50,418 nt of DNA from Clostridia bacterium (GTDB lineage: Bacteria; Bacillota; Clostridia; Oscillospirales; Acutalibacteraceae): the NCBI GenBank assembly GCA_017942105.1, contig JAGAVE010000074.1, positions 1 through 50,418 of the forward strand. Reading direction: 5' to 3'. The position numbers and the translations under genes were made by a program. Positions 1,549 through 50,418 of this stretch are shown here, piece after piece. The number at the start of each line of letters is the position of its first letter. Positions within the stretch are counted from its first letter, which is position 1. The notes under the pieces are model-generated. The model made no database searches, was not told where the DNA came from, and was given only the letters and a program-made list of their open reading frames with translations.

Positions 1549-3570
<2,022 letters not shown>

Positions 3571-38792: not shown

Positions 38793-38831
38793 TAAATAAA
38801 ATGCACCATCGGAACAAAGCCGACAGTGCAT
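38793..38831 (-). terminator. Terminator of the 34-residue peptide gene
   Basis: On the minus strand a 12-pair stem with two G-U pairs (38831-38820 with 38812-38801, loop of seven) is followed by TTTTATTT. It comes 20 bases after the stop codon. Confidence 0.85.
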
Positions 38832-38851
38832 CACATTATGTAACAAATCTT

Positions 38852-38956
38852 TTAATAAAATAAACTCGTGATAATGAATCCTAAACCAATACCTGACATA
38901 AGGAAAAAATTCATAATCATTTCAAGAACATTGTATATTGCCTCAAAAATGAACAT
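38852..38956 (-). CDS. 34-residue hydrophobic peptide, XRE-controlled
   Basis: I do not recognise a family. The peptide starts MFIFEAIYNVLEMIMNFFLM and ends in a second hydrophobic run, GIGLGFIITSLFY; together they can span the membrane once or lie in it. It has only two acidic residues and no basic one. The ribosome binding site is AAAGGGGG. It has a perfect consensus promoter (39014-39042) carrying an operator in its spacer, and a 12-pair terminator. The divergent XRE gene is the obvious repressor. Size and hydrophobicity recall type I toxins, small membrane regulators or leaderless bacteriocins; none of these can be chosen from sequence alone. Confidence 0.75.
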   Translation of the reverse strand: MFIFEAIYNVLEMIMNFFLMSGIGLGFIITSLFY

Positions 38957-39013
38957 ACCTTATCCCCCTTTCAAATTTGAACCATTGAATAAACAATGAT
39001 TTCTTTCATAAAC

Positions 39014-39042
39014 ATTATATGACAAACTGTCATAATTGTCAA
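39014..39042 (-). promoter_or_regulatory. Consensus promoter with operator in its spacer
   Basis: On the minus strand TTGACA (39042-39037), 17 bases, TATAAT (39019-39014) drive the 34-residue peptide. The palindrome TATGACA-AAC-TGTCATA (39018-39034) fills most of the spacer and touches the -10, so a bound repressor would block RNA polymerase. Confidence 0.88.
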
Positions 39043-39050
39043 CCACAAAT

Positions 39051-39067
39051 TATGACACAATGTCATA
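39051..39067. promoter_or_regulatory. Second XRE operator copy
   Basis: TATGACA-CAA-TGTCATA repeats the first operator with identical arms and a different centre, 33 bp away centre to centre (about three helical turns). It ends two bases before the ribosome binding site region of the XRE gene and should give autoregulation. Confidence 0.85.
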
Positions 39068-39077
39068 GGGTGATATT

Positions 39078-39290
39078 GTGAATACAAGATTAAGCGAATT
39101 AAGAAAAAGCAAAGGAATTACGCAAATTTCCTTGCAAATGCAGACAGGCATTGAACAAGCACTGATATCCAAATTTGAAAACGGAGAAAGAGTACCTCCG
39201 ACCGAAACGCTTGTTACTTTAGCCGATTTTTATAATGTAAGTATTGATTATATTCTCTGCCGCACCGATAAACCTGAAATAAACAGATAA
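39078..39290 (+). CDS. XRE-family transcriptional regulator (70 residues)
   Basis: This is a single helix-turn-helix domain with almost nothing else. MNTRLSELRKSKGITQISLQ leads into the recognition region EQALISKFENGERVPP and the typical ending LADFYNVSIDYILCRTDKPE. It starts with GTG after AGGGTGAT. The two identical-arm palindromes upstream (39018-39034, 39051-39067) are very probably its own binding sites, so it should repress the divergent hydrophobic peptide and itself. No sensor domain is present; release may need an antirepressor, proteolysis or a small ligand. A 12-pair terminator follows two bases after the stop. Confidence 0.93.
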   Translation: MNTRLSELRKSKGITQISLQMQTGIEQALISKFENGERVPPTETLVTLADFYNVSIDYILCRTDKPEINR

Positions 39291-39291
39291 A

Positions 39292-39330
39292 AAGAGTGAG
39301 GAATTGTTTCCTCACTCTTGATTTTTATTG
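39292..39330. terminator. Bidirectional terminator of XRE and ispH-rpsA genes
   Basis: The 12-pair perfect stem AAGAGTGAGGAA (39292-39303) with TTCCTCACTCTT (39308-39319) is followed by GATTTTTATTG on the plus strand. Confidence 0.88.
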
Positions 39331-50182: not shown

Positions 50183-50418
50183 ATGGTCAAGCCCTCGACC
50201 TATTAGTACTGCCCAGCTGAAAGTATCACTACTCTTACACCTGCAGCCTATCAACCTCATAGTCCTTGAGGGGTCTTACTAGCTTATGCTATGGGATATC
50301 TTATCTTGGAGGGGGCTTCACGCTTAGATGCTTTCAGCGTTTATCCCGTCCGCACTTAGCTGCCCAGCCGTGCCATTGGCATGACAACTGGTGCACCAGC
50401 GGTGCGTCCATCCCGGTC
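50183..50418 (-). rRNA. 23S ribosomal RNA, 3' end (partial)
   Basis: Read on the minus strand, the segment is the last roughly 235 bases of 23S rRNA. Recognisable conserved blocks are GACCGGGATGGACGCACC at the window edge, GGTGCACCAGTTGTCATGCC, GCTAAGTGCGGACGGGATAA, GAAAGCATCTAAGCGTGAAG, and the end block TACTAATAGGTCGAGGGCTT. The 3' end is placed just after GACC at about 50183. The remainder of the gene lies beyond the window. Confidence 0.97.

Follow-up and report, generated by a model that had tools for sequence, protein, structure and literature searches.

Two small divergent genes were identified in the window, the 50,418-nt stretch of clostridial DNA (contig JAGAVE010000074.1) analysed here (Table 1). 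One encodes a 70-aa protein of the XRE type, presumed to be a repressor, and the other, on the opposite strand, a 34-aa hydrophobic peptide, with TTGAAAGGGGGATAAGGT preceding the ATG of its 34-codon open reading frame (ORF) and a terminator-like hairpin behind it. The description of this region in an earlier note on the DNA was borne out: two 17-bp palindromes with exactly identical arms lie between the genes, their centres 33 bp or about three helical turns apart, one of them (operator 1) over a perfect TTGACA-17-TATAAT promoter and the other (operator 2) before the GTG start of the XRE gene. Operator 1 lies in the promoter spacer and also takes in the first two -10 bases, and operator 2 may be read as containing the extended -10 of the XRE gene. 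We refer to the gene behind the perfect promoter as the cargo and to that promoter as the cargo promoter.

Table 1. Features of the XRE and peptide genes and of the region between and around them, in window coordinates.
Feature	Position	Strand	Basis or remark
XRE gene, 70 aa (HTH_3), presumed repressor	39078-39290	+	ORF with GTG start; Pfam HTH_3, 9.9e-14
Operator 1, TATGACA-AAC-TGTCATA	39018-39034		Over spacer and first -10 bases of cargo promoter
Operator 2, TATGACA-CAA-TGTCATA	39051-39067		Over presumed XRE extended -10
Cargo promoter, TTGACA-17-TATAAT	39014-39042	-	-35 at 39042-39037, -10 at 39019-39014; 12/12
Presumed XRE extended -10, TGACACAAT	39053-39061	+	Putative, read from the sequence
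34-aa hydrophobic peptide (cargo of the window copy)	38852-38956	-	ORF; 55% homologue in genome G275
Peptide ribosome-binding site, AAAGGGGG	38964-38971	-	Sequence
Terminator-like hairpin of cargo transcript	38800-38832	-	Also forms in fold of presumed transcript
Two-sided terminator-like hairpin directly after XRE stop	39292-39319		Terminator scan

Exact matches to the palindrome in the window were limited to operators 1 and 2; three other matches need 3 mismatches, a laxity at which shuffled sequences gave a mean of 2.19 matches. No further exact copy was found in the draft genome (2.30 Mb, 79.7% complete), in which a single site with 1 mismatch (C67) precedes a 390-aa ORF that we take to be transporter-like; no XRE gene was recognised nearby. 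A wider operator regulon in this genome was thus rejected, there being no other exact operator and the C67 site looking like chance. Elsewhere in the window, a second strong promoter-like site (TTGACA-17-TAGAAT, 11/12; 38688-38660, minus strand) lies at the start of the 288-aa ORF to the left of the peptide gene, and the end of a bacterial 23S rRNA gene (50183-50418, minus strand; Rfam LSU, 208.8 bits) lies at the contig edge.

The XRE protein and its two-way promoter among relatives

The XRE protein scored 51.6 bits against Pfam HTH_3, above the gathering score of 23, and consists of the DNA-binding domain only, without a sensor domain. Its relatives are 67-88% identical to it, and 29 of the 70 alignment columns are invariant in 19 spread sequences. 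The model of the RstR family (NF041951) matched 19 of 19 members at E <= 0.001 (best, 1.1e-16), the window protein reaching 54.5 bits, below the curated cut-off of 80; the nearest PDB sequence by profile was 7t8i, an ICEBs1-type Xre. Residue 61, a cysteine (ILCRTD), is nearly invariant in the 19 spread sequences and is replaced by glycine or another residue in several loci; a role as redox or metal contact is possible.

Related loci were collected in two ways. In a scan of genome contigs from 84,980 species with the XRE protein, 115 related stretches were found and the 80 best of them retained. Independently of the protein, a pattern consisting only of the cargo promoter and operator 1 was run on 398 genomes of the family; it matched in 16 of them, the window's included, as compared to 1 match for a reversed control pattern. 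An XRE relative lay just beyond the pattern in each of the 15 foreign promoter matches and the switch pattern is thus beyond chance. The resulting 96 loci contained 10 duplicates, namely L041 and nine of the 15 promoter matches; without them, 86 non-redundant loci remained, the window among them.

Both operators, with at most 3 mismatches each, are present in 81 of the 86 loci; one locus has a single operator (L078) and four have none (L025, L048, L070 and L074). Of the 81 loci with both, 48 have operators spaced at 32 bp, 32 at 33 bp and one at 19 bp. The central triplet of operator 1 takes 26 forms in these loci, and that of operator 2 is nearly fixed (TAA in 57, CAA in 11 and AAA in 8), which would be because operator 2 contains the presumed extended -10 of the XRE gene; at this position most relatives have TGACATAAT. 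The cargo promoter has a -35 of TTGACA in 68 loci and TTGACT in 7, and its -10 reads TATAAT in 47 and departs from this by one base in most of the rest. Information content falls from 2.0 bits at the base that ends the cargo -10 to 0.22 bits one base further on, as computed from 78 rows that were matches to the promoter pattern, so that conservation inside the pattern is partly a matter of selection and the drop beyond it is not. Likewise, when the 96 loci, including duplicates, were aligned in pairs across the XRE gene, 2945 of 4218 alignments began at -70 to -61. The conserved unit is hence the XRE gene plus about 64 bp of two-way promoter. In many relatives a different hairpin was found, by eye, at the place of the one that follows the XRE stop codon.

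Individual loci depart from this arrangement. In L034 the cargo is missing and the cargo promoter is degraded, with operator 2 and the XRE gene intact (2870-3000). L048 carries two XRE copies in the same direction (2537-3210), only the upstream one of which aligns with an operator-bearing switch. Identical 5.2-kb stretches lie in opposite orientation near both ends of the contig that holds L040 and L041 (JAFUKG010000032.1), possibly an assembly duplication.

Changing cargo genes and chromosomal neighbours

Conservation in relatives, on which the earlier note had made its proposal depend, was thus found for both palindromes; the peptide was found again only in genome G275, beside a different XRE gene. 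The G275 homologue is full length and 55% identical over 33 residues (E 2.9e-5 per genome in a search of 398 family genomes), has the same start as the window peptide and is nearly equal in length; its local alignment score of 91 compares to a maximum of 57 in 20,000 shuffles. Its gene is the third of five same-strand ORFs that run away from the XRE gene and encode proteins of 336 aa (with an N-terminal hydrophobic stretch), 53 aa, 35 aa (the homologue), 274 aa (BspA-LRR) and 556 aa; the 53-aa product, directly before the homologue (L172, 2697-2858), is also a hydrophobic peptide with a ribosome site. The XRE protein encoded beside this row is 47% identical to that of the window over 58 residues. 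A two-row profile run on 384 genomes of the order recovered only the window copy of the peptide, and a six-frame profile search of the stretches examined around the other 85 loci of the window XRE found none. Of five weak matches (E 0.12-0.58), the four inspected were rejected as lying inside longer, unrelated-looking frames; the fifth lies in a 405-aa frame. No match to the peptide was obtained in Pfam, PADLOC, NCBIfam or PHROG, in agreement with the earlier remark that the peptide has no named family. The peptide is probably a real hydrophobic gene product.

Cargo was compared among 76 loci; 10 of the 86 were omitted as having, by judgement, no credible or complete cargo ORF (L018, L019, L025, L034, L048, L060, L064, L070, L074 and L086), and of the 76 cargos kept, five extend past the end of the compared DNA and some are weak (L015 and L061). 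The 76 cargos fell into 54 groups, including 43 singletons (blastp, E 1e-4, single linkage), and a ribosome-site-like word precedes 74 of them. Elsewhere, the genes behind this switch encode, among others, lipoproteins, zinc-ribbon membrane proteins and proteins of the LRR, dockerin or WG-repeat type. Family scans covered 74 cargos, among them that of the window, with the near-copies L022 and L093 omitted. At E 0.001, a zinc-ribbon model matched 10 of these, including at least two that fall short of the Pfam cut-off; other Pfam matches comprised BspA-LRR with dockerin (L013), dockerin (L023), WG repeats (L084), Ltp lipoprotein (L069), DUF5067 (L036), DUF4352 (L072), DUF4190 (L076), SLOG/YAcAr (L062), DUF2130 (L054), ABC transporter ATPase (L037), collagen repeats (L096) and an Arc-like protein (L050), and several cargos (e.g., L010, L046 and L049) had no Pfam match. 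By a simple hydropathy measure, a membrane segment was predicted in 64 of 76 cargos and in 48 of 136 flanking ORFs, the latter being raw ORFs of at least 150 aa, some of which are possibly not genes; cargo products usually carry a predicted membrane segment or export signal and may thus be located at the membrane. GC content was 0.407 for cargo, 0.405 for XRE genes and 0.479 for the right flank in the 71 of 76 loci with enough flank, a gap of about 7 points, and was below that of the right flank for cargo in 62 and for XRE in 64 of these 71 loci.

Among the 74 cargo-bearing pairs of loci with XRE proteins at least 90% identical, the cargo is shared in 15 by direct match and in 16 by group. All three pairs with XRE proteins at least 95% identical keep the same cargo group; exchange would therefore not be very recent in these closest pairs. 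Three pairs share the XRE gene and downstream flank up to -64/-62 and carry different cargo: L058/L082 (77.7% over 2180 bp), L040/L084 (78.6% over 630 bp) and L011/L023 (88.9% over 1509 bp). The shared flank gene is presumably endonuclease III-like in L058/L082 and EF-Ts in L011/L023, which fits the counts of HhH-GPD and EF_TS among the right neighbours. Since blastp matches the cargos of L011 and L023 to one another and both fall into a group with dockerin-bearing proteins, this pair represents a change of architecture and not of every domain. Right-flank genes are common, and cargo is not, in L058/L082, in L040/L084 and also in L014/L024, where the common flank begins 374 and 1043 bp downstream of the start of the XRE gene; at homologous sites, a gene that stays constant was thus found next to unrelated ones, as in a hypervariable island. 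L018 shares its left flank with L013 and lacks a recognisable cargo. Two small ORFs just beyond the XRE gene of L024 (3262-3927), between cassette and conserved flank, are presumably a toxin-antitoxin-like pair. One zinc-ribbon cargo group mostly keeps its own XRE subgroup, which counts against free exchange.

The chromosomal setting changes as well. The right neighbour is common to 6 of 87 pairs with XRE proteins at least 90% identical. The window cassette sits between the 288-aa ORF and a 683-aa ORF; according to a reading of the ORF lists of L126 and L127, the congener G003 has a 433-aa ORF, with about 100 bp on each side, between the counterparts of these two ORFs, and in G013 a counterpart of the 433-aa ORF occupies this place alongside two more ORFs, one of 259 aa (HTH-type) and one of 315 aa. 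We take the 433-aa ORF of G003 to be thymidine phosphorylase-like. Within the genus, just 4 of 18 genomes have a match to the 288-aa ORF, which in one of them is partial. Right neighbours were scanned with 74 of 146 ORFs, one per locus, six loci with an ORF being omitted and the second, more gene-like ORF being used in L012, L020, L021, L032 and L037. Their commonest Pfam families, with at most two members each, were of the kind of tRNA synthetases, SAM synthetase, EF-Ts and SSB; no integrase or transposase was found in the right neighbours of the 74 loci among the matches listed (25 of 114 Pfam families).

Three further switch families were examined. Families A and B derive from two (L110 and L111) of three other XRE loci of the window genome, out of nine, that were followed up; they were chosen since their divergent genes looked exported and hence provide no unbiased estimate of generality, and for the third locus (L117), meant as a negative control, one relative was found. 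Family C derives from the XRE gene beside the peptide homologue, and two of its four loci come from one genus. A divergent promoter of the family's own was recognisable in 8 of 11 (A), 11 of 16 (B) and 4 of 4 (C) loci, counts that are only descriptive, as the patterns are loose and were derived from the same loci; a four-locus alignment in family B stands outside these counts. In all three families the divergent genes differ between loci, with exceptions such as L167 and L170 in family B (41% alike), and some loci lack a clear divergent gene. Cargo common across families comprised that of L026 with L147 of family A (38%, 1.2e-51), those of L036 and L047 with L144 of family A (DUF5067), LRR proteins with L163 of family B, and the window peptide with family C. 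The window genome holds all four XRE switch families.

A proposed portable switch with exchangeable cargo and its alternatives

Across these loci we observed a conserved switch, turnover of cargo, changing chromosomal neighbours, lower GC content and some cargo types that occur across families. Because relatives vary the cargo, the interpretation given in the earlier note was reversed, the switch being taken as the conserved entity and the peptide as one of many cargos. We consider it probable, at roughly 0.7, that the locus represents a portable, autorepressed bidirectional switch whose cargo is exchanged. The 70-aa XRE protein would bind both palindromes, shutting its own extended -10 promoter from operator 2 and the consensus-strength divergent promoter from operator 1, and the gene behind the cargo promoter would stay off until the XRE protein is lost, titrated or inactivated. 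Autorepression combined with cargo repression appears the natural reading because operators lie over both promoters and the protein is HTH only; two like and conserved operators over both promoters, the XRE promoter being read from the sequence, are what an autorepressed divergent switch has, and the state of L034 fits this reading. Cargo would be swapped with a junction at or just beyond the -10 box, and the same mode of action seems to apply to several XRE families that differ in promoter sequence and overlap in cargo.

That XRE and peptide form a dedicated two-gene module (toxin-antitoxin, lysis or signalling), in which the regulator evolved to control the peptide, would agree with a strong promoter that holds an operator, with the peptide's own ribosome site and terminator and with a small, hydrophobic product. 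However, the peptide was found only in the window genome and G275, in none of the stretches examined around the other 85 XRE loci, and in G275 in a multi-gene row by a different XRE gene, so that a dedicated pair, whose peptide does not travel with the XRE gene, was rejected as the main reading and is distinctly improbable. Of the XRE-peptide system put forward earlier, the operators over a strong divergent promoter were retained and the peptide as dedicated partner was not. No positive evidence emerged for a toxin, lysis or stress-regulator product, which had also been suggested, nor was a toxin partner recognisable as in type II toxin-antitoxin systems: the peptide has no match to a toxin family, and PADLOC scattered the 74 cargos over 8 families with at most two members each. 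A short regulatory RNA made from the cargo promoter, with the ORF incidental, is very improbable; the presumed 213-nt cargo transcript has a better fold than its shuffled versions (z -2.97), an advantage due in part to the terminator, but the region has no Rfam match at the gathering threshold, and both the ribosome site and a full-length peptide homologue that scores far above shuffles argue for a translated product.

Two other alternatives were weighed. A prophage remnant or moron, i.e., a lysogeny repressor left in the chromosome with a conversion or superinfection-exclusion gene, would account for the resemblance of the XRE protein to phage and ICE repressors (RstR and 7t8i), for the Ltp lipoprotein cargo of L069 and for superinfection-exclusion PHROG matches in 2 of 74 cargos. 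The 15 relatives on viral contigs, found by a scan with two conserved peptide patterns, are only 32-38% identical, though, and phage and plasmid matches are all below 60%, the best among those listed being about 50%; the commonest families of right neighbours are those given above, with no integrase or transposase among the matches listed (25 of 114 families). We rejected a phage or plasmid origin for lack of a close relative in phages, plasmids or viral contigs, and regard this account as unlikely. Also unlikely is an account by ordinary mobile accessory genes, with fast turnover and loose pairing, for which the divergent gene would often be no regulated target at all. Location and cargo do both change, right neighbours at least as much as cargo, and clostridial hypervariable islands with one constant gene have been described (PMC8545432). 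Against this stand a cargo promoter and operator kept nearly base for base, the ribosome-site-like word before 74 of 76 cargos and the locus without cargo (L034), in which the cargo promoter is degraded and operator 2 remains.

The proposed portable switch shares features with several known systems. ImmR of ICEBs1 and RstR of the CTX phage are autorepressing switches of the XRE/CI type; the present switch is like them in its small HTH_3 repressor, in operators over a divergent and its own promoter and in sequence similarity to the RstR and Xre models, and differs in its chromosomal settings, in being tied to no element, in having no fixed target gene and in an XRE protein that comprises only the DNA-binding domain; its score against the RstR model, 54.5 bits, is below the cut-off of 80. 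Integrons place exchangeable gene cassettes behind an invariant promoter and encode an integrase; here, an invariant promoter likewise precedes exchangeable genes, but a repressor stands in the integrase's place and no integrase was seen next to it among the matches listed (25 of 114 families). Phage morons are autonomous units with their own promoter and terminator between unrelated genes, a property shared by the switch, which unlike them is chromosomal and has a private repressor and changing cargo. Type II toxin-antitoxin systems undergo partner swapping, and one regulator-like gene with many different neighbours is seen in both cases; the genes described here are divergent, however, and not co-transcribed, and their cargo is mostly not toxin-like by PADLOC or Pfam. 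The nearest published situation we have met is that of the AcrIIA22 hypervariable islands of gut clostridia, in which a constant anti-CRISPR gene has changing neighbours between conserved chromosomal flanks and no recombinase is reported to have been found (PMC8545432). One constant small gene with changing neighbours between conserved chromosomal genes is common to both, whereas here the constant gene is a repressor with a conserved bidirectional promoter and occupies many chromosomal sites. Among the open-access papers listed in searches for an XRE switch with changing cargo, none appeared, from title and abstract start, to describe one.

A broader reading, which we hold tentatively and at somewhat less than even odds, is that gut Clostridia have combinatorial expression cassettes, in which at least four XRE families, all with an invariant bidirectional operator-promoter of their own, would act as interchangeable switches at which envelope genes from one shared pool dock. 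This pool would comprise BspA-LRR, DUF5067/DUF4352 and zinc-ribbon membrane proteins as well as small membrane peptides, and cargo would move between switches, so that new genes may arrive silenced, privately repressed and switchable one by one. A local regulator is usually expected to stay with its target; here, regulator and operators persist and the neighbouring gene changes, even among relatives with repressors more than 90% identical. If the switches work as read, their promoter signatures would provide probes for silenced envelope genes of uncultured gut Clostridia and for small membrane peptides, and would make it possible to test how genes, once acquired, are brought under immediate control.
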